Part shown: piece by piece, positions 10,133 to 32,451 of the stretch | Layout: each line of letters begins with the position of its first letter | Position numbering within the stretch: position 1 is the first letter of the stretch | Assembly: GCA_945893075.1 (NCBI GenBank) | Contig: CAMDDX010000040.1 | Span: forward strand, 1-32,686 | Direction of reading: 5' to 3' | DNA length: 32,686 nt | Source of the DNA: Planctomyces sp. SH-PL62 | GTDB lineage: Bacteria > Planctomycetota > Planctomycetia > Planctomycetales > Planctomycetaceae | Program-made: the position numbers and the translations under genes | The notes under the pieces: generated by a model | Databases searched by the model: none | What the model was told of the DNA's origin: nothing | Seen by the model: the letters and a program-made list of their open reading frames with translations, nothing else

Positions 10133-12301
10133 ATGAGTTCGGATTGGTTGGATTCACGTGGTTTACGTTTTGATCCCGCTCACGCGCGGTTCGGACGCGA
10201 CCCGGCGTTTACGACGGCTCAAAGCAACGCGGGAGCGGAACTCGACGCGGCTTTGGCGGCGAAGGCTCCCGAACGAGCACAATTGCATGATGCGATTGGC
10301 CGCACGCGCGAGTATCTCTTCTCGAATCAGCACGAGGACGGTTTCTGGTGCGGTGAGCTGGAAGGGGACACGATCCTCGAAAGCGAATACATCCTGCTGT
10401 TGACGCATCTCGGCCGCGGACAGTCGGAGCAATCGCAGCGGTGCGCGAATTACATTCGCCAACAGCAACTGACCGACGGCGGATGGGCGATCTATCCGGG
10501 CGGGCCGCTGGAAGTCAGCGCCTCGGTGAAGGCGTACTTCGCATTGAAGATCGTCGGCGACTCGGCGGACGCCGAGCACATGCTTCGCGCGCGGCAGGCG
10601 ATCCTGGCGGCCGGCGGGGCGGAGAGGGTCAACAGCTTCACGCGGTTTTATCTGGCTCTGCTCGGCGTGATTTCTTACGAGCAATGTCCGGCAGTGCCTC
10701 CGGAAGTTGTGCTGCTGCCGAAATGGATGCCGTTCAATATCTCCGAGATGTCGGCGTGGTCGCGGACGATCATCGTACCGCTCAGTTTGATGTGGGCCTT
10801 TCGCCCGGTCACTCGGCTGCCGGCGGAACAAGGGATTCGCGAGCTGTTCGTTCGCACGCCGGAAGAGCTGCCGGCGTCGATGCCGAAATGCGAACAGCTC
10901 GATGAGTTGTCCAAGCAGACGCTGATTGACTGGGAAGCTTTCTTTCGCCACGCGGATGCCGCGCTAAAAACGATCGACCGCTGGCGAATCCGACCGCTTC
11001 GCAAGCGAGCGATCCGGAAGGCGACGAAGTGGATGATCGACCGGTTCGCCGACAGCGACGGACTGGGAGCGATCTTTCCGCCGATCATCTGGAGCATCGT
11101 CGCGCTGCGTTGTTTGGGGTACGGCGACGACTCGCCCGAAGTCCGTTCGCAGTTGCTGGAACTCGAACGGCTGACGATTTCCGAGGACGGTGTTGATCGT
11201 CTGCAACCGTGTAAGTCGCCCGTGTGGGACACGGCCATCGCGACGATCGCTCTGCGCGATGCGGACGTGCCTGCGGAGCATCCCGCCTTGCAGCAGTCGG
11301 TGCGGTGGTTGCTCTCGCAAGAGATTCGCCGGCGCGGTGACTGGGCGGATCGGGACACTCAGACCGAACCAACCGGCTGGGCTTTCGAGTTTCGCAATGC
11401 GTTCTATCCCGACGTCGATGACACCGGCATGGTTTGTATTGCGCTCAGCCGCTGCCTGCCGGAACACAATTGGTCAACGGACGTTTTACTCGACGAATGG
11501 AGCTGGCACCCCGAAGACAAAGACGTCGCCGCCGTCGTGTCCGGCAAGGCCGAGGATGCCGAAGACGCGGTCGCTCAGGTTCATGCGATGGGACCACTGC
11601 TAAGCGCGATTCATCGTGGTGCTCGGTGGGTGCTGGCGATGCAGTCGAGCGACGGTGGCTGGGGTGCGTTCGACAAGGACAACACGCGCGAACTCTTTAC
11701 GCGCGTGCCGTTCGCCGATCACAACGCGATGATCGATCCCAGCACCGCCGATTTGACGGCGCGAATGATCGAGATGTTCGCCGGACTCAACGTCTCGATC
11801 GACCACCCGGCGATTCAACGCGGCTTGAAATTCGTCTGGTCCAAGCAGGAACACGATCACTGCTGGTACGGCCGCTGGGGCGTCAACTATCTCTACGGCA
11901 CCTGGCAAGTCATCGTCGGTCTGACGGGCATCGGCATTCCGACGACCGACCCTCGCATCCGCCGCGCGGTCGAATGGCTGAAGGCAAAGCAGCAACGACA
12001 CGGCGGCTGGGGCGAAACGATTCGCAGCTACGACGAGCCGGCATTGCGAGGACAAGGCGAAGCGACCGCTTCGCAAACCGCGTGGGCGTTGCTCGGATTG
12101 ATCGCCGCCGGCGAAGGGCATTCGGACGAGGCACAACGCGGAGTCGATTATCTCCTGCGCACGCAGTTGCCCGACGGAACCTGGCACGAGCCGACCTGGA
12201 CCGGCACCGGCTTCCCGAAAGTTTTCTATCTGAAGTACCACCTCTACCGGATCTATTTCCCGCTGATGGCGCTGGGCCGGTATGCAAAGGTGTCTGGCTG
12301 A
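10133..12301 (+). CDS. shc: Squalene-hopene cyclase
   Basis: The 722-residue enzyme cyclises squalene to hopene/hopanol, giving hopanoid membrane lipids; it is a monotopic membrane enzyme. The catalytic DXDD motif is DVDDT at residues 427-431. QW-type repeats are visible: DGFWCGELEGD, QLTDGGWAIYPGG, QSSDGGWGAFDKDN, QQRHGGWGETIRSY and QLPDGTWHEPTWTGTGFP. The C-terminal signature FYLKYHLYRIYFPLMALGRY is also present. It is longer than common bacterial enzymes (about 630-680), largely through an acidic stretch of about 45 residues just after the DVDDT strand (around PEDKDVAAVVSGKAEDAEDA). ATG at 10133 follows CAGGGAG with 10 nt spacing. It stands alone, without hpn genes of the squalene pathway in the window. 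Confidence 0.93.
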   Translation: MSSDWLDSRGLRFDPAHARFGRDPAFTTAQSNAGAELDAALAAKAPERAQLHDAIGRTREYLFSNQHEDGFWCGELEGDTILESEYILLLTHLGRGQSEQSQRCANYIRQQQLTDGGWAIYPGGPLEVSASVKAYFALKIVGDSADAEHMLRARQAILAAGGAERVNSFTRFYLALLGVISYEQCPAVPPEVVLLPKWMPFNISEMSAWSRTIIVPLSLMWAFRPVTRLPAEQGIRELFVRTPEELPASMPKCEQLDELSKQTLIDWEAFFRHADAALKTIDRWRIRPLRKRAIRKATKWMIDRFADSDGLGAIFPPIIWSIVALRCLGYGDDSPEVRSQLLELERLTISEDGVDRLQPCKSPVWDTAIATIALRDADVPAEHPALQQSVRWLLSQEIRRRGDWADRDTQTEPTGWAFEFRNAFYPDVDDTGMVCIALSRCLPEHNWSTDVLLDEWSWHPEDKDVAAVVSGKAEDAEDAVAQVHAMGPLLSAIHRGARWVLAMQSSDGGWGAFDKDNTRELFTRVPFADHNAMIDPSTADLTARMIEMFAGLNVSIDHPAIQRGLKFVWSKQEHDHCWYGRWGVNYLYGTWQVIVGLTGIGIPTTDPRIRRAVEWLKAKQQRHGGWGETIRSYDEPALRGQGEATASQTAWALLGLIAAGEGHSDEAQRGVDYLLRTQLPDGTWHEPTWTGTGFPKVFYLKYHLYRIYFPLMALGRYAKVSG

Positions 12302-12306
12302 TTCTC

Positions 12307-12372
12307 GCTCGTAGTGACCCCATTCATGGGGTCGAGCACCACGCGGATCCGATAAATCGGGTCACGACGAGC
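12307..12372. repeat. Two-part palindrome after the cyclase gene
   Basis: Outer arms 12307-12320 (GCTCGTAGTGACCC) and 12359-12372 pair with one mismatch. The left arm can alternatively pair locally in GACCCCATTCATGGGGTC (12316-12333). It starts 5 nt after the shc stop. Confidence 0.7.
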
Positions 12373-12515
12373 GTCGGCTGCTTGCGGCTGCGCGAACGAC
12401 TCGAAAGGATAGTCCGGCTCGCGGGTTGGGAATTTTGCCCGGCTCGGAGAATAACCCCGGAAAGCCGCGCATCGCTTGAGGGCTGCGACCTTTGCCGGCG
12501 GACGGAGACGAAAGC

Positions 12516-13082
12516 TTGGCCACCGGCAAGGACAGTTTCGAGCCTGCGGATGCGGCGAACTCACTGGAAAAACAGTGGTTTGCCGAATTCGCGGGAGAGT
12601 TGCGGGCCTTCCTGCTGGGAGTGCTTCGTAACGACGACTCGGCGAGCGAGGCCCTGCAAGCCACGCTGGTCAAGGCGCTCGAACGAGGACATGAGGCTCG
12701 GCCGGAAACCCGTCGCGGGTGGCTGTTCCGAGTGGCCTTGAACGAAGCGTTGGTCCTGAAGCGGCGAGCGAAGATCCAGCAGAAATCCTTTCGCGAATTG
12801 GCTCAGAACGACCCCCGTCGGCATGAGTCGGCGGAAGGTTCGGTCACTCGGAATGAATCCCCCGCGGGGTTTGCTCTGAAAGCCGAAGTGATCGAACGAG
12901 TGCGTCTCGCGTTGGACGGCCTGCCGGCCGAACAGCGACGAGTGGTCCGAATGCGAATCTACGAACACAAAACTTTCGCGGTCATCGCGAGCGAATTGAA
13001 AGTGCCTCTCGGAACCGTGCTGACGCGAATGCGACTAGCAACGGAAAAGCTACGGGACCGATTGGCTGAGTTGGACAGTTGA
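12516..13082 (+). CDS. ECF-type RNA polymerase sigma factor
   Basis: This is a 188-residue sigma-70 family factor of the extracytoplasmic-function type. Region 2 runs from about residue 20 (WFAEFAGELRAFLLGVLRND) through ARPETRRGWLFRVALNEALVLKRR. Region 4 is the C-terminal helix-turn-helix (LDGLPAEQRRVVRMRIYEHKTFAVIASELKVPLGTVLTRMRLATEKLRDRL). TTG at 12516 is preferred as start because GGAG at 12504-12507 lies 8 nt upstream; an in-frame TTG at 12492 lacks such a site. The gene for a single-pass membrane protein follows after 4 nt, the usual position of a cognate anti-sigma factor. The target promoters are unknown, but the downstream DUF1549/DUF1501 genes are candidates. Confidence 0.87.
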   Translation: MATGKDSFEPADAANSLEKQWFAEFAGELRAFLLGVLRNDDSASEALQATLVKALERGHEARPETRRGWLFRVALNEALVLKRRAKIQQKSFRELAQNDPRRHESAEGSVTRNESPAGFALKAEVIERVRLALDGLPAEQRRVVRMRIYEHKTFAVIASELKVPLGTVLTRMRLATEKLRDRLAELDS

Positions 13083-13086
13083 AATC

Positions 13087-13623
13087 ATGACGACTTCTGA
13101 AATGACAAATCAAAACGAACTCGCATGGCTGGCAAACCGCTACGTCGCAGGCGAACTCTCGGTCGATGAGACTGCGGCGTTCGAGGCTCGCCTGGAGACC
13201 GACGTAGCTGCTTGCAGCGCGGTCGCTCGCGCGATGGAACTGAATCTCGCGATCGCCGCCGCGTTCGACCAAGAAACTTCGCAACCGGTCGCACGACCGA
13301 TTCAGGAAACCGTCGCCCCGGCCCGCTGGTCGGTCGCGTCCCTCGCCACGTTGGCGGCTTTGGCAGCCGTGGCGGCGAGCGTCGCGTTGATGGTCGGACA
13401 CATCGGCTCAAGGACGAACGGGATTGCTCGCAAGGATGGAGCGGATCGAATCGTCGCAGCCTGGGTTTCGGGCGAGGCCGCTCGAAACAACACGGATGAC
13501 GATGATCTCCTCGACGCGACGGATGACGACGATCTTGATCCGCCCGACTGGATGCTCGCGGCGCTGACGGTTGAAGACGTGAAAGAACAGCTCCCCGGCA
13601 ACGACGACATCCGAGAAAACTAA
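13087..13623 (+). CDS. Putative anti-sigma factor, single-pass membrane protein
   Basis: The protein has 178 residues. The N-terminal ~60 residues (ELAWLANRYVAGELSVDETAAFEARLETD) look like the helical sigma-binding domain of anti-sigma factors. Only one Cys (residue 43) is present, so the zinc-binding HxxxCxxC of ZAS domains is missing. One transmembrane helix lies at residues 82-104. The extracytoplasmic tail has two acidic clusters (TDDDDLLDATDDDDLD, about 136-151) and then a hydrophobic PPDWMLAALTVEDV. It begins 4 nt after the sigma factor stop, so translation is probably coupled. The role is inferred from position and topology. Confidence 0.7.
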   Translation: MTTSEMTNQNELAWLANRYVAGELSVDETAAFEARLETDVAACSAVARAMELNLAIAAAFDQETSQPVARPIQETVAPARWSVASLATLAALAAVAASVALMVGHIGSRTNGIARKDGADRIVAAWVSGEAARNNTDDDDLLDATDDDDLDPPDWMLAALTVEDVKEQLPGNDDIREN

Positions 13624-26178: not shown

Positions 26179-26297
26179 ATCTTTCGCCGAAGTTTTGGAG
26201 ACGCAGGCTCCGACGCCACTGAATCAACTTTGTCACCGAATCGGCCGCCAGCGCCACTATGCTGGGGTGGTAAGTTTTCACGGTTCGGAGCGAGATC

Positions 26298-28061
26298 ATG
26301 GCGACGGCAGCAGTTGGTTCGGACGTGGCGTTGTGGCAATTGGTTTGTGGCGACGACCGGCAGGCGTTTGCGGAGTTGGTGGGGCGGCATCAGTCGGCGG
26401 TGGCGGCGGTCGCGTACAGCGCGTGTGGCGATTTGACGCTCAGCGAAGATATCGCTCAGGAAGTCTTTTGGGCCGCATGGCGAGAACGGACGGCGCTGTT
26501 GGACCCGTCTCGGTTGCGGGCTTGGCTGTGCGGGATTGCTCGGAATCTGGCCAACAACGCGATGCGGAGAGCACGGCATTCGGAATCGCTCGACGGACGG
26601 ACGGAACAGTCGGCCGGCAAGCCCGAACCGTCGGACGAAGCGGCTTCGCGCGAAGAGCAAGCGCTGGTCTGGCAGGCGTTGGAAGAGATTCCCGATGCGT
26701 ACCGCGAGCCGTTGATCTTGTTTCATCGCGAATATCAATCGGTGGCTGAGGTCGCGACGACGCTCGAACTTTCCAGCGATGCGGTGAAGCAGCGCTTGTC
26801 TCGCGGACGCGAGATTCTGCGCGAGCAGGTGGCGGACTTAGTCGAACGGACGTTGAAGAACAGTCGTCCGCGATCCGGATTCACGACCGCGGTCATCGCT
26901 GGCCTCACGGCTCTTTCGGCCGGAACAAAGTCTGCCGTCGCGGGGACTGCGGCAATGCCAGGTTCGTCGGCCGCCGTGTTGTCGAGCGGCGTAGTGGCAG
27001 CCGGCAAGGCGGCGCTGATGAGTCCATTGATTGGAACGCTGGCCGGCTTGGCGGGAGGCTGGTTCGGAACGTGGCTCCCGGCACAGCTCGCACCGACGAA
27101 TCGTGAACGGCAGCATCTGCGGAGTGTGGGACGACGAATGCTCATCGTCTCGGTGCTGGCCACATTGCTGTTGTTGGTCGCGATCTGGCTGTGCGTCTCG
27201 ATGCGCGCGAGCGGGATGGAAATCGCTGCCATTACGATTGGTTGGATCGTCCTGTTTCAAGGCTACGTCTGGATCGAGTGCCTCGTCTCGTATCGCGCGG
27301 TGCGGCAGATTCGGGCCGAGACGCCGACCGATTCCGATCGCAATACCGCTCCGCTGGCCGTGGCCGCGCAGCGGCTGGCGAATCGTTGGGAAGGGCGCGT
27401 CTATCGCAGTTCTGTCTCGCTGCTGGGTTTGCCGCTGATCGACATCTGCGTCAGCGATCCCGGTTCATTGTCGTCCGGTTCGGCGACTCCGCCACCACGA
27501 CTGCGTGCTTGCGGTTGGATCGCGATCGGCGACCGAGCGGATGGAGTCCTGCTGGCGATCGGCGGCGTGGCTCGCGGCTTCATCGCGTTGGGAGGCATCG
27601 CGATCGGATGTGTGAGTTGCGGTGGAATGTCGATCGGCCTGGTCTCGGTCGGCGGTTTGGCCATTGGAGCGGTGGCCCTGGGCGGACTCGGCGTCGGCGG
27701 ACTCGCGTTCGGAGGCGGAGCCATCGGCTGGCAAGCCTGCGGCGGCGGCGCACTGGCCTGGGACGTCGCCGTGGGGGGCGCGGCAGTGGCCTATCACGCC
27801 GCGTTCGGCGGAGCCGCAATCGCTCATGACGTCGCACTTGGCGGAGGCGTCTCGGCGCTGCACGCCAACGATGACGTGGCGAAGTCCTTCTTCGAGGGAC
27901 ACTGGATGGTGGATTCGTTGACGTGGCTGCAATCGCACAACACGGCATTCCTCGTGACGACGATCATCGTGAGCCTGCTGCCTTCCCTGATCAGCGCAAA
28001 ACTGATGTACCGCCGCAAACCGGCCGAGGCGAATTCTGATCTCCCAAGCGGTCATCCCTGA
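26298..28061 (+). CDS. ECF sigma factor fused to membrane segments and a glycine pentapeptide-repeat array
   Basis: The protein has 587 residues. Residues 20-95 form sigma region 2 (SEDIAQEVFWAAWRERTALL, RLRAWLCGIARNLANNAMRR). Residues 125-180 form region 4 with a helix-turn-helix (SVAEVATTLELSSDAVKQRLSRG). An Ala/Gly/Ser-rich section follows (195-260). Transmembrane helices lie at about 279-301 and 308-332, and one near the C-terminus at 549-570. Between them, residues 415-520 hold a five-residue array, for example GGIAI GCVSC GGMSI GLVSV GGLAI GAVAL, with GG every ten residues. GGAG precedes ATG at 26298. No separate anti-sigma gene follows, so regulation may be built into the fusion. Domain calls for the sigma part are firm; the role of the repeats is unknown. 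Confidence 0.85.
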   Translation: MATAAVGSDVALWQLVCGDDRQAFAELVGRHQSAVAAVAYSACGDLTLSEDIAQEVFWAAWRERTALLDPSRLRAWLCGIARNLANNAMRRARHSESLDGRTEQSAGKPEPSDEAASREEQALVWQALEEIPDAYREPLILFHREYQSVAEVATTLELSSDAVKQRLSRGREILREQVADLVERTLKNSRPRSGFTTAVIAGLTALSAGTKSAVAGTAAMPGSSAAVLSSGVVAAGKAALMSPLIGTLAGLAGGWFGTWLPAQLAPTNRERQHLRSVGRRMLIVSVLATLLLLVAIWLCVSMRASGMEIAAITIGWIVLFQGYVWIECLVSYRAVRQIRAETPTDSDRNTAPLAVAAQRLANRWEGRVYRSSVSLLGLPLIDICVSDPGSLSSGSATPPPRLRACGWIAIGDRADGVLLAIGGVARGFIALGGIAIGCVSCGGMSIGLVSVGGLAIGAVALGGLGVGGLAFGGGAIGWQACGGGALAWDVAVGGAAVAYHAAFGGAAIAHDVALGGGVSALHANDDVAKSFFEGHWMVDSLTWLQSHNTAFLVTTIIVSLLPSLISAKLMYRRKPAEANSDLPSGHP

Positions 28062-28470
28062 GTCGTTGATTGGGGCGATTGTACTTTGGCCCGAAGGGTC
28101 ATCACTCGAAAGCCCAGGGCAACGCCCTGGGTCACCGACGTTGCGGACTCTCAAGCCCTGAAAGGGCGGAACTCTCTGCGATTGTTTGTTTCGCCCTTTC
28201 AGGGCTTTGGCTGTCTCGAGATCGAATACCCAGGGCGTTGCCCTGGGCTTTCGAGTTGCGACCCTTCGGGCCAAAGCGCAAAACTCATGCTGAGCCCCAA
28301 TATCCGCACGGCGATCCTGAGAGCACCGCTCGCCTTGGTTCGTCGGAACTGCTGGCCCTCGACACCGCTCGTCATTCACGACGCTGCGAGAACGTGATAC
28401 GTTGCTCGGCATACTCACCGTTCCCTGGAAACCGATGAGTTTGGTGAGTCCCTAATTGCGAGGCAGACCG
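28062..28470. other. 409-nt gene-free gap with a nested palindrome
   Basis: The first half is the three-stem palindrome 28085-28275. The remaining ~190 nt to the ATG at 28471 hold no convincing gene, promoter or repeat. Short open frames here are just readings through the repeat. Confidence 0.5.
28085..28275. repeat. 191-nt nested inverted repeat (three stems)
   Basis: Outer arms 28085-28132 and 28228-28275 (48 nt each) pair with a few mismatches. Each includes its own local palindrome CCCAGGGCAACGCCCTGGG or its complement. Inside, AAGCCCTGAAAGGGCG (28153-28168) pairs with CGCCCTTTCAGGGCTT (28192-28207). In RNA form it would fold into a long hairpin with an internal stem, or a cloverleaf. 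No protein is encoded. Confidence 0.9.
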
Positions 28471-31400
28471 ATGCGACAACTTTCTACGGCTCACGCGTTC
28501 GGAACGGTTTTGGGTTGGATGTTGTGGGGAGCGATCTCCACCGGAGTGACGGTTGCCGCCGACTGGCCGACCTATCGCGGCGACAACGCTCGCAGCGGAT
28601 CGGCGGCGGAGACCGTTCGAGTCCCGTTGCAGCCGCGCTGGATCGCGAGCGCTCCCGGCGCGCCGCGACTCTCCTTTTCGAGTGCCGAAGGGCGAGTCAT
28701 CGAAGGACATTTGCTGGGGCACCGCGCCAAGTACGATGATGCCATCCATCCGGTGGTTGTCGGCCAGCAAGTGTTCTTCGGGTCGTCGGTCGATCATCAA
28801 TTGCACTGCGTCGATCTGCACACGGGCTCGGAAGTCTGGACGTTCTTCAGCGGCGGGCCGATTCGTCTCGCACCGACGGTGAATGGCAACCGTGTCTATT
28901 TCGGTTCCGATGACGGGTTCGTCTATTGCCTCGCCGCCGCCGATGGCCGGCTGTTGTGGAAGCTGCGGGGCGGGCCGGCGGACGAGTGGTTGCTGGCGCG
29001 TGGCGAGATGGTGTCACGCTGGCCGGTGCGTACCGGCGTATTGGTGGATGGCGGGGTCGCTTACTTCGGCGCGGGAATTTTTCCGCACGATGATGTCTTC
29101 CTGACCGCGGTGAATGCGGCTGACGGTTCGATTGTCTGGAAGCAGGACAACATCAGCTCGCTCGACGCCGGGCGAAACGATTTGTCGCCGCAGGGATATC
29201 TGCTCGTGAGCGACAATCTGCTGGTCGTTCCCTCGGGTCGGTCGCTGCCGGCGGTGTTTGATCGCGCGAACGGACGCATGTTGCACAAGCGAGAATTCGG
29301 TCGTGGGACGGCGGGAGGCGTGGTCGGCAGCGTGCAAGCGTTGCTCGCCGATGGGCAAATCTATTCGGCCGGGCCGCATCATTTGCTCGCGATGGAGCAG
29401 AAGACCGGCGACATGGGTTTTGGCTGGATCGCCGGACGGCAGATGGTCGTGAGCGATGATGCGGCCTACGTTGCCACCGGCGAAGTTGTCTCGCGGTTGA
29501 ATCGTTTGGAATACGCCGCTAACAGTCGCCGCCGGCATCAACTGGAATTGGACCTCACGAGCTTCAACAACCAAATTCGTGCCGCCACCGCGGTCCCCGC
29601 CAAGGCGGTCGAGATTCGCAAGAAAATCAGTGAGGCTCAGGCGGAACTCAAACGCATCGCGGATGTCGGCGTCGTCTGGGAGAAGCCGGCCAAGGATGAC
29701 TCGGCATTGCTCGCGGCCGGTGACCTCGTCTTCCTCGGAGGCAAAGGACGCGTGACGGCTTACTCGTCGAAGACCGGCGAGAGTCTTTGGCAGAGCGTCG
29801 TTGACGGTGAAGCGCGCGGACTGGTGGTTGCCAGCGGACATCTGCTGGTCAGCACGAGCACCGGGCACATCTACAACTTCGCTTCCGCCGATCTCAAGTT
29901 GGCCGCCGTGCCACCCGCCGCGAAGCCGATCGACAATCCATTTCCTGATGACAACCTCACCGCGATGTACCGGCAAGTGGCCGAGGAAATCCTCAAACGC
30001 TCCGGTGCGAAGCGCGGCTATGGCCTCATCGTTGGTAACGAACAAGGCCGGTTGGCTTACGAGTTGGCGAAGCGCAGCGAACTGAAAATCTACGCCGTCG
30101 AATCAAACGCGAAGAACGTGGCGGAGGCGCGAACCAATCTGTCGCGAGCCGGACTCTACGGCACGCGGATCGTTGTCCATCAGGCTGATCCCGCGAACGT
30201 GCCGTACTCCAACTACTTCGCCAACGTCATCGCTTCCGATTCGCTGGTGAAGACCGGCACGTTGGTCGGCGATCCGCAAAAACTCGCCCGGCACCTGAAA
30301 CCCTTGGGGGGTGCGATCGTGCTGGGTCGCCCGGCGGGAGCGTCCGGTAAGCCCATTGAAATCGCTGACGCGACCGCGTGGCTGCAACGAACCGAGCTTG
30401 GCGAACATGCTCGACTCATGGCCGCTGATGGCTGGGCCACGCTCACGCGCGGCGCGCTGCCGGGGGCCGGCAACTGGTCGCATCAGTATGGCAACGCCGC
30501 CAACACGGCGGTCAGTCTCGACAAGCGGGTGAAGGGAGACCTCGGTGTGCTGTGGTTCGGCGATCCGGGTCCGGGTGATATGGTCAACCGTCATGAGGGT
30601 GCGGTCGGACCGCTCGCCACAAACGGCCGGTTGTTCGTCCAAGGCGAAGACAGCATCTCGGCCTACGACGCTTACAACGGCACGTTTCTGTGGAAGTACG
30701 AAAACCCCAAAGCGCTCCGCACGGGCGTCTTCCAAAATCAAAACCCCGGCAACCTCGCGGCGTCGGACGATCGGCTGTTCCACTTCGTCAAAGACCAGCT
30801 CATCGAACTCGACGCCGCCACGGGCGAGACCAAACGCATCCACCGCCTGCCGCCGGACAAGGACGACGGCAAATACGAATGGGGCTACGTGGCGACGGAG
30901 AACGGTTTGCTGTTCGGCACGGCCACCATCCGCAAGGAACTCGAAGCGAAGCTGAAGCGGCGCGGACTGAAGACCGATGACGCGACCGACGGCATCTTCG
31001 CCATCGACATCGAAACCGGGAAACATCTTTGGACCTACAACGGGCAGAGCATCTCGCATCACACCATCGCCATCAGCCCGGAGAACGTCTACTTCATCGA
31101 CAGCTCAGTCACGCCCGAACAACGCGCGGAGATTCTCCGAAAGGACAAGACCGAACTCGCCAAGCTCTCCGGCAAAGAACTTGAGATCGCCGAAGAACGC
31201 GCCAAGAAAGCCGACCTCCGCCAAGCCGTCGCGCTCGAAGCTCGCACCGGCAAGCTGCTGTGGGCCAATCCGGTGGACGTGACCGATTGCAGCGACATCG
31301 GCATCGGCGGCGGCAAGCTCACGCTGATGGTTCACGACAACGTCCTGCTCTTGGGCGGAGCCAACGCCAACGGCCATTACTGGAAGCAGTTCGTCGCCGG

Positions 31401-32451
31401 CGAGTTCTCGCGACGCCGGCTGGTGGCGCTCTCCGCGCTGCACGGCTACAAGCTGTGGGCGAAGGACGCCAATTACCGCCATCGTCCCATCATCGTCGGC
31501 AGCCAGGTCATCGCCGAGCCTTGGTCTTTCGATCTCAGCAGCGGCGAACAAAAGACGCGGCAGCATCCGCTGACCGGTGTGGAAGAACCTTGGAGCATCA
31601 TGCGCACCGGGCATCACTGTGGAATGCTCACTGGTTGCGAATCGGGCATGTTGATGTTTCGCTCCGGAGCGACCGGGTTTTACGACCTCGATTCCGACCA
31701 AGGGACGCGGCATTTCGCCGGTCATCGGCTCGGCTGCTGGATCAACGCCATTCCGGCCGGCGGTCTGGTGATGATCCCCGAAGCCAGCGCCGGCTGCGTC
31801 TGCCTGTTCTCGATCGCCTCGACCATCGTCATGGAACCGCGCGAGACGCGCCGTCCCTGGACGATCGTCAGCGCGGTCGGTGCGCAGACTCCCGTGCAGT
31901 CGATGGCCCTCAACCTCGGCGCTCCCGGCGACCGCAAGGATGCCGACGGCAAAATGTGGCTGTCGTATCCGCGACACAAGGCATATCAGGAAACGTCGCT
32001 CGACATCAAACTGGATCTCAAGCCCAAATTCAAAACGGGCGGCCAATTCACCAGCGTCAGTGAAACGCTGCAACCCATCGACGGAACCGAAGCGCCTTGG
32101 CTCTATACGTCCTGGGCCGAAGACTTGGAACAACTCACGCTGCCGCTCCTCGGCCCGAAAGATCAGCCGGCCACCTACACCGTGCGATTGCACTTCGCGC
32201 GGTTGGGCAACGCAGGGCGCGAGCCGATCGTCTTCGACGTTCAATTGCAGGGAAAAACGGCGTTGGAGAATTTGACGTTGCCGATCACTTCACCGTCGCC
32301 AGCGGAGGATGCGGTCGGGCATGCGACGGCGATCGTCCGCGTTGTCGAGAATGTGCGAGTGACCGACAACCTGGTTGTGGGCTTGATCGCCAAGCAAGGC
32401 AAAGCTCGGCTGTGCGCGATCGAAGTTGAGAGAAACGAAGCCGGACGATGA
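28471..32451 (+). CDS. Large secreted PQQ-like propeller protein with a central methyltransferase-like domain
   Basis: The protein has 1,326 residues. A signal peptide (about 1-30) leads to DWPTYRGDNARSG, the usual opening of planctomycete PQQ-like propellers. First propeller: residues ~30-480, with repeats such as LHCVDLHTGSEVWTF, VYCLAAADGRLLWKL and VTAYSSKTGESLWQS, interrupted by a short coiled coil near 350-395. Residues ~495-665 look like a class I methyltransferase fold: LIVGNEQGRLAYELA (degenerate glycine motif), IYAVESNAKNVAEARTNL and a VIASDSL strand. Second propeller: ~670-1170 (ISAYDAYNGTFLWKYE, IFAIDIETGKHLWTYNGQ). A C-terminal beta-rich domain follows, about 1200-1326. ATG at 28471 has GAGG 6 nt upstream. 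A methyltransferase fold in an apparently exported protein is odd; it may be a degenerate binding domain. Confidence 0.87.
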   Translation: MRQLSTAHAFGTVLGWMLWGAISTGVTVAADWPTYRGDNARSGSAAETVRVPLQPRWIASAPGAPRLSFSSAEGRVIEGHLLGHRAKYDDAIHPVVVGQQVFFGSSVDHQLHCVDLHTGSEVWTFFSGGPIRLAPTVNGNRVYFGSDDGFVYCLAAADGRLLWKLRGGPADEWLLARGEMVSRWPVRTGVLVDGGVAYFGAGIFPHDDVFLTAVNAADGSIVWKQDNISSLDAGRNDLSPQGYLLVSDNLLVVPSGRSLPAVFDRANGRMLHKREFGRGTAGGVVGSVQALLADGQIYSAGPHHLLAMEQKTGDMGFGWIAGRQMVVSDDAAYVATGEVVSRLNRLEYAANSRRRHQLELDLTSFNNQIRAATAVPAKAVEIRKKISEAQAELKRIADVGVVWEKPAKDDSALLAAGDLVFLGGKGRVTAYSSKTGESLWQSVVDGEARGLVVASGHLLVSTSTGHIYNFASADLKLAAVPPAAKPIDNPFPDDNLTAMYRQVAEEILKRSGAKRGYGLIVGNEQGRLAYELAKRSELKIYAVESNAKNVAEARTNLSRAGLYGTRIVVHQADPANVPYSNYFANVIASDSLVKTGTLVGDPQKLARHLKPLGGAIVLGRPAGASGKPIEIADATAWLQRTELGEHARLMAADGWATLTRGALPGAGNWSHQYGNAANTAVSLDKRVKGDLGVLWFGDPGPGDMVNRHEGAVGPLATNGRLFVQGEDSISAYDAYNGTFLWKYENPKALRTGVFQNQNPGNLAASDDRLFHFVKDQLIELDAATGETKRIHRLPPDKDDGKYEWGYVATENGLLFGTATIRKELEAKLKRRGLKTDDATDGIFAIDIETGKHLWTYNGQSISHHTIAISPENVYFIDSSVTPEQRAEILRKDKTELAKLSGKELEIAEERAKKADLRQAVALEARTGKLLWANPVDVTDCSDIGIGGGKLTLMVHDNVLLLGGANANGHYWKQFVAGEFSRRRLVALSALHGYKLWAKDANYRHRPIIVGSQVIAEPWSFDLSSGEQKTRQHPLTGVEEPWSIMRTGHHCGMLTGCESGMLMFRSGATGFYDLDSDQGTRHFAGHRLGCWINAIPAGGLVMIPEASAGCVCLFSIASTIVMEPRETRRPWTIVSAVGAQTPVQSMALNLGAPGDRKDADGKMWLSYPRHKAYQETSLDIKLDLKPKFKTGGQFTSVSETLQPIDGTEAPWLYTSWAEDLEQLTLPLLGPKDQPATYTVRLHFARLGNAGREPIVFDVQLQGKTALENLTLPITSPSPAEDAVGHATAIVRVVENVRVTDNLVVGLIAKQGKARLCAIEVERNEAGR

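Follow-up and report, generated by a model that had tools for sequence, protein, structure and literature searches.

A planctomycete ECF sigma factor joined to a membrane hairpin and a glycine beta-roll module: a candidate autoregulated, membrane-tethered switch

Membrane-tethered ECF sigma factors are few and poorly studied. In IutY of Pseudomonas putida (ECF243) the sigma factor is fused to its own membrane anti-sigma factor and stays tethered until signalled; the protein serves cell-surface iron signalling, and Prc and RseP free its sigma part by regulated proteolysis (PMC8999054). ECF48, ECF52 and ECF53 proteins (e.g., SCO4117) carry a zinc-finger domain, to which ECF52 adds a proline-rich and a carbohydrate-binding part (PMC8999054, PMC5826349). 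In ECF41 a C-terminal extension regulates sigma activity, the targets are neighbouring COE genes, and the promoter reads TGTCACA-N16-CGTC (PMC3426412).

The gene at 26298-28061 (+) of the window (the whole 32,686-nucleotide stretch of DNA analysed here) encodes a 587-aa protein in which an ECF sigma factor is followed by a transmembrane (TM) hairpin, a glycine beta-roll array and a C-terminal TM helix. As in IutY, sigma and a membrane-bound part share a single chain, the latter being here a putative regulator; unlike IutY, the window protein has a glycine beta-roll and no conserved neighbours. With ECF48, ECF52 and ECF53 it has in common a long C-terminal extension with TM helices, but its linker contains neither Cys nor His and its array is different. 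The C-terminal extension (regulatory in ECF41) and the -35 motif TGTCAC recall ECF41, from which the window gene differs in that its apparent target is itself and that a membrane array replaces a soluble domain. Its motif, TGTCACC-N15-GCCACT, has the TGTCAC core alone in common with the ECF41 promoter and falls outside that class, and a SnoaL-like C-terminal extension of the ECF41 type gave no Pfam match in the protein at E<=1. The initial annotation had considered a membrane-tethered sigma factor an unusual design, a view that the membrane-fused IutY, ECF48, ECF52 and ECF53 do not support (PMC8999054). Tethered ECFs are already known, and the window protein adds a glycine beta-roll variant.

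The reading frame starts with ATG and is unbroken over 587 codons, and the parts of the gene and the promoter-like motif described below lie on the same (+) strand. The order is sigma region 2, region 4, three hydrophobic helices, glycine array, C-terminal hydrophobic helix and basic tail. Region 2 (26376-26576, residues 27-93; PF04542, Sigma70_r2, E 3.4e-11) and region 4 (26664-26813, residues 123-172; PF08281, Sigma70_r4_2, E 3e-8) exceed their Pfam cut-offs, which bears out the complete region 2/4 pair noted initially, and together with a TIGR02937 match above its own cut-off they identify the protein as an ECF sigma factor of the sigma-70 family. The same genome has 37 Sigma70_r2 matches but a single full-length match to the sigma-array fusion. 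Region 4 is followed by a low-confidence linker rich in Ala, Gly and Ser (26853-26990, residues 186-231, by direct reading), and AF2 run with the full alignment gives pLDDT <50 across residues 174-240. Direct reading of residues 186-231 found no Cys or His, so the zinc anti-sigma motif is absent; an ECF52-type zinc finger between sigma region 4 and the membrane segments was also sought, with no Cys in residues 186-270 and no Pfam zinc-finger match. This linker is a candidate release region.

The initial annotation placed two TM helices ahead of the array; hydrophobic helices are indeed predicted there, and AF2 makes them three. The first (26991-27086, residues 232-263; AF2 helix, hydropathy) is Gly-rich and either transmembrane or interfacial. 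The other two (27099-27320, residues 268-301 and 306-341; AF2 helices, hydropathy) look like a hairpin whose two outer sides are each flanked by basic residues, by K/R counts. The final TM helix proposed after the array coincides with an AF2 helix and a hydropathy peak at residues 548-570 (27939-28007); the residues ahead of it are acidic, and the tail after it, MYRRK, is basic. With hydrophobic segments called by a simple hydropathy scale, and signal sequences throughout judged by eye, the segments and their basic flanks are consistent with membrane anchoring.

The array module starts with an N-terminal cap (27384-27503, residues 363-402; consensus YRSxxxLLGLPLxDI...ARG) that is common to stand-alone and kinase-fused modules. 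The glycine beta-roll array proper (27504-27857, residues ~403-520, from AF2 strands and repeat statistics) includes a core free of D, E, K and R (27576-27761, residues 427-488). Eight GG-to-GG spacings of ten occur in the array against a mean of 0.63 in composition-preserving shuffles, and G-x-x-[AS] occurs 19 times against a mean of 8.4; in neither case did any of 20,000 shuffles reach the observed count, so neither pattern is due to chance. The array, described initially as five-residue repeats with GG every ten residues, is real, while its repeat unit is ten residues made of two five-residue halves, lengthening to 11 in the C-terminal third. AF2 with the full alignment predicts beta-structure over residues 403-519 (pLDDT 92-95), and with the array alone, continuous beta-structure with pLDDT up to 97. 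The predictions point to a solenoid or roll, in agreement with the solenoid suggested earlier, and the array is neither disordered nor a peculiarity of this protein, being confident beta in AF2 and kept in homologues. A helical glycine-zipper array was also considered and was dropped because of the AF2 beta-structure and the 5/10 period. Unit statistics were drawn from 507 ten-residue units in 91 modules, collected with a pattern that fixed positions 1 and 6 as G and restricted position 2 to G, N or A. In 94-96% of the units positions 4 and 9 hold A, G, S or T; hydrophobic residues fill positions 3, 5, 8 and 10 in 79-86%, with charge tolerated there. This composition is what a flat roll would show if small residues made up its core and hydrophobic ones its surface; the ten residues per coil (from sequence), the handedness and the inward or outward direction of each position are putative. 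The charge-free core has a median length of 59.5 residues in the ECF types and ranges from 28 to 89 over all modules examined.

This is a conserved module absent from the family libraries searched (Pfam, NCBIfam, PHROGs), which returned no convincing match to it, one PHROG reaching E 0.029. It resembles pentapeptide-repeat proteins in its five-residue half-repeat and differs from them in its period of 10-11 with GG. The array, initially called a pentapeptide array, was not recognisable as one in the classical sense: no such Pfam match was obtained at E<=1, and solved pentapeptide proteins are missing among 41 Foldseek matches, an absence that leaves a distant relation to these or other families possible. 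Foldseek searches of the PDB and of viral models with the array turned up no fold of significance, and a PDB sequence search returned chance-level matches only, V-ATPase subunit K among them. The closest solved folds in VIA-align are YadA-like heads of trimeric adhesins, BpaC (Z 7.8, rmsd 7.0) and BoaA (Z 7.0, rmsd 5.5), followed by the Lolium ice-binding protein LpIBP (Z 4.5), with Foldseek E-values >1; the scores are moderate, and chance arrangements reach the Z of the adhesin heads too. YadA heads are left-handed beta-rolls, and in Pfam the YadA head profile did not match the window protein at E<=1.

Where else does this module occur? Cap and array are found C-terminal to Ser/Thr kinases, to an Xre HTH domain in Clostridium symbiosum (L124) and after zinc ribbons, and also as stand-alone proteins. 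ECF-TM-array proteins occur outside planctomycetes as well (L108, L109, L114, L122). The module is represented in Planctomycetota, Verrucomicrobiota, Hydrogenedentota, Pseudomonadota, Acidobacteriota and others, and at least 38 of the 392 genomes in a phylum sample gave a match at E<=1e-5. The contig scan used alignment A4, alignment A3 being too diverse for it. The array is thereby a conserved domain, new to the libraries searched, that sits on three kinds of cytosolic regulator and alone in several phyla, and it probably marks a little-known link between membrane state and gene control. Other combinations were seen in passing. A verrucomicrobial protein (L134:3617-5821) joins a TM hairpin and array to Acyl_transf_3 with no sigma domain, and two further proteins (L055:1264-1986 and L159:1288-2034) combine the array with an N-terminal helical domain that lacks a convincing Pfam match and appears sensor-prefix-like by eye.

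A second recurrent partner is an M16-type peptidase. Several Isosphaeraceae-like proteins run on past the array into an M16 peptidase; Singulisphaera acidiphila (L091) and a further Isosphaeraceae genome (L094) have instead a separate M16 gene directly downstream of the ECF-array gene, its ATG in L094 overlapping the upstream stop, and both M16 proteins have signal-like, lipobox-like N-termini by eye. Kinase-array proteins show a parallel association. One of them (L160) is fused to an M16-like domain, the strict kinase-array-M16 fusion being confined to one genome, and in related genomes an M16-like gene with a signal-like N-terminus lies directly downstream of the kinase-array gene, at 35 nt in G433 and about 80 nt in G476. 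Further M16-like genes with signal-like N-termini are present on other stretches of these genomes, with no established link to the kinase gene. In Pfam the kinase-linked proteins are weakly M16 (L160 tail, E 0.16; L166, E 0.00021, just below the cut-off) or, for L172, without an M16 match; a home-made profile (E 5e-9 to 1e-14) and an HxxEH motif tie them to the sigma-linked M16 proteins. To judge from these N-termini, the separate M16-type partners of the sigma systems and those of the kinase systems alike look exported. Fusions that lack the C-terminal TM helix (L064, L067 and the kinase fusion L160) have no signal segment before M16, and M16 fusions that have this helix keep one. An M16-family gene was found neither in the window nor beside the gene in its own lineage, and the M16 matches that its genome does contain are distant, at 23-29% identity.

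A putative autoregulatory promoter, TGTCACC-N15-GCCACT, lies at 26231-26258, 67 nt upstream of the ATG, as read from the aligned upstream regions of five orthologues. TGTCACC-N15-RCCACT stands ahead of the window gene and of its close orthologues, with variants ahead of distant ones. Of 31 ECF-array upstreams, 15 had the bipartite motif (shuffle mean 0.09, max 2), about half lacking the full form, and 23 had TGTCAC (mean 1.8, max 5); these counts are descriptive, the motif having been derived from the same upstreams, several of them from close relatives, and its presence in distant lineages carries more weight. Among genomes of the genus, the strict motif stands clearly ahead of a gene start at this gene only, and other matches, including the one in the own genome, fall inside long open frames. 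Relaxed searches for a wider regulon placed most other matches inside long open frames, and a script run on short stretches found none recurring before one gene in two genomes. Conservation of the motif at orthologues fits autoregulation; regulation of the gene itself alone is suggested by exact-match searches in five genomes, which weaker sites would escape. Neither this motif nor the wide family, the kinase and Xre fusions or the M16 partner figured in the initial annotation.

The analysis shows, at the level of sequence, an intact two-domain ECF sigma factor whose chain continues into a predicted membrane hairpin, then the conserved module with its glycine beta-roll, and lastly a C-terminal membrane helix; the tethering and the self-promoter are putative. 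The preferred reading, to which we assign a probability of roughly 55%, is an autoregulated, membrane-tethered one-protein sigma switch. The membrane part would stand in for an anti-sigma factor and keep sigma off core RNA polymerase, and the roll with its membrane contacts would sense a change in membrane or envelope state. Sigma would then come free, either through proteolytic cleavage of the linker ahead of the hairpin or through a conformational change in situ, and would transcribe chiefly its own gene and, in species having one, the adjacent M16-type peptidase gene. This reading draws on the intact sigma regions, the conserved architecture and pN/pS values below 0.5 (see below), the promoter motif, the basic flanks, the occurrence of the module on Ser/Thr kinases and an Xre HTH protein, the M16 link and the IutY and ECF41 precedents. 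It also draws on the neighbourhood, no neighbouring gene being conserved at orthologues. Against it stand the lack of the M16 link in the window's own lineage, the derivation of the motif from the upstreams in which it was counted, and the share of upstreams without the full bipartite form. In agreement with the initial annotation, no gene next to the window gene was recognised as coding for an anti-sigma factor. The window neighbours had also been considered as an operon, which was rejected on the same lack of conservation.

How the switch would work depends in part on where the array resides. Tentatively, it may stay on the cytosolic side, forming a hydrophobic rod that rests against the membrane or oligomerises and that acts as a platform or autoinhibitory domain. 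The kinase- and Xre-fused modules, with no preceding TM helix or signal, favour such a location, and the moderate-Z analogues, trimeric adhesin heads, are in line with oligomer formation; the basic C-tail would, however, have to be outside, and the M16 domains of L064, L067 and L160 would lie in the cytosol though separate M16-type partners look exported.

Alternatively, the array itself could cross the membrane as a beta-roll with its N-terminus cytosolic and its C-terminus outside, small residues inside and hydrophobic residues toward lipid. By the positive-inside rule, the basic hairpin flanks, the acidic stretch before the last helix and the basic tail, the latter two fitting a tail inside and an array C-terminus outside, require the chain to cross the membrane an odd number of times between residues ~345 and ~548, a stretch whose main hydrophobic element is the array. 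The lack of an earlier TM helix in kinase and Xre fusions, in several of which the array supplies the only long hydrophobic segment outside M16, or the chief one (some kinase types, L120, L133 and L045, having further hydrophobic segments after it), implies a cytosolic array N-terminus, and signal-less M16 fusions (L064, L067, L160) beside signal-bearing separate M16 genes imply an outside C-terminus; together with the odd crossings these points make a crossing roll a serious possibility. The charge-free core in the modules examined and the small (4/9) and hydrophobic (3/5/8/10) positions agree with it, as do charges around the core (K/R 3.5 vs D/E 1.6 before, D/E 2.3 vs K/R 1.9 after), although these counts come from related sequences and their p of 4e-12 ignores kinship. 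Against it, a limited literature search found no precedent for such a transmembrane fold, which would be its significance if true, and no insertion route is known. AF2 gives no membrane placement, the ten residues per coil come from sequence, the core length varies, the strict kinase-array-M16 fusion comes from a single genome, and signals were judged by eye. We hold the crossing roll doubtful, and equally doubtful its corollary that the array lets a cytosolic sigma, kinase or HTH domain signal directly across the inner membrane, in some lineages together with an exported M16-type partner.

Since a tethered sigma needs release or must act in place, a further alternative, compatible with any topology, is that sigma works while still bound to the membrane, with no proteolysis, much as membrane-bound one-component regulators do. 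No conserved protease gene adjoins the window gene and the predicted target is the gene itself only, which suit this mode; RNA polymerase would have to come to the membrane, though, and the IutY precedent points to release, so that we consider it unlikely. Less likely still is that the helices in residues 232-341 all cross, making the array of ECF members a periplasmic, outside sensor and placing kinase and Xre modules in another compartment. The three hydrophobic helices in AF2, the exported M16 and a basic C-tail inside would agree with such an arrangement, but it leaves two strongly basic loops outside, and L134 apparently has the hairpin alone before its array, by eye.

When 99 relatives were searched with the C-terminal part, same-genus orthologues came up at 75-79% identity over that part, along with full-length relatives in other families. 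Across Planctomycetia the sigma-TM-array architecture recurs, complete genomes included; 29 of 297 genomes of the class have a match at E<=1e-40, some of these being sigma-TM proteins without the array. An alignment of 23 proteins spans sigma, hairpin and array, with the C-terminal helix in most. Over the array, pN/pS against five orthologues is 0.17-0.43, similar to the sigma part, with the two most distant pairs saturated at silent sites; values below 0.5 for sigma and array point to purifying selection on the sigma, TM and array parts. That a frameshift or mis-assembly fused two genes is scarcely credible, for although the source genome is a draft of 484 contigs, the identical architecture in same-genus and distant, independent genomes, some complete, and the selection over all three parts exclude such an origin in practice. 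In a sigma-domain tree the array-bearing ECFs do not form one clean clade (four changes, modest support) and the M16 fusions fall into two supported sets; the outgroup is one own-genome sequence on a long branch, and the rooting is unsure. Related sigma-TM proteins without the array (L079-L085) mostly have the TGTCAC motif upstream. In two planctomycete genomes, ECF-array copies appear decayed or frameshifted, one with internal stops (L074) and others in two frames (L077/L086).

Several other features of the window may be recorded. The stretch 10133-13623 holds, by eye, a squalene-hopene cyclase-like gene, after which comes a small gene for an ECF-type sigma factor (12492-13082); the next gene, 13087-13623, encodes a protein with one hydrophobic stretch that may be the anti-sigma factor of 12492-13082, which would give the window a possible canonical pair. 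A YTV-domain neighbour of the window gene (Pfam), like the named relatives, indicates a planctomycete. At 28456-32451 a long protein combines PQQ-type beta-propeller repeats with a methyltransferase-like stretch in mid-chain. Directly downstream of the gene, at 28079-28281, is a large inverted repeat of two 94-nt arms, 80% complementary and 15 nt apart, which might be a dispersed palindromic element.
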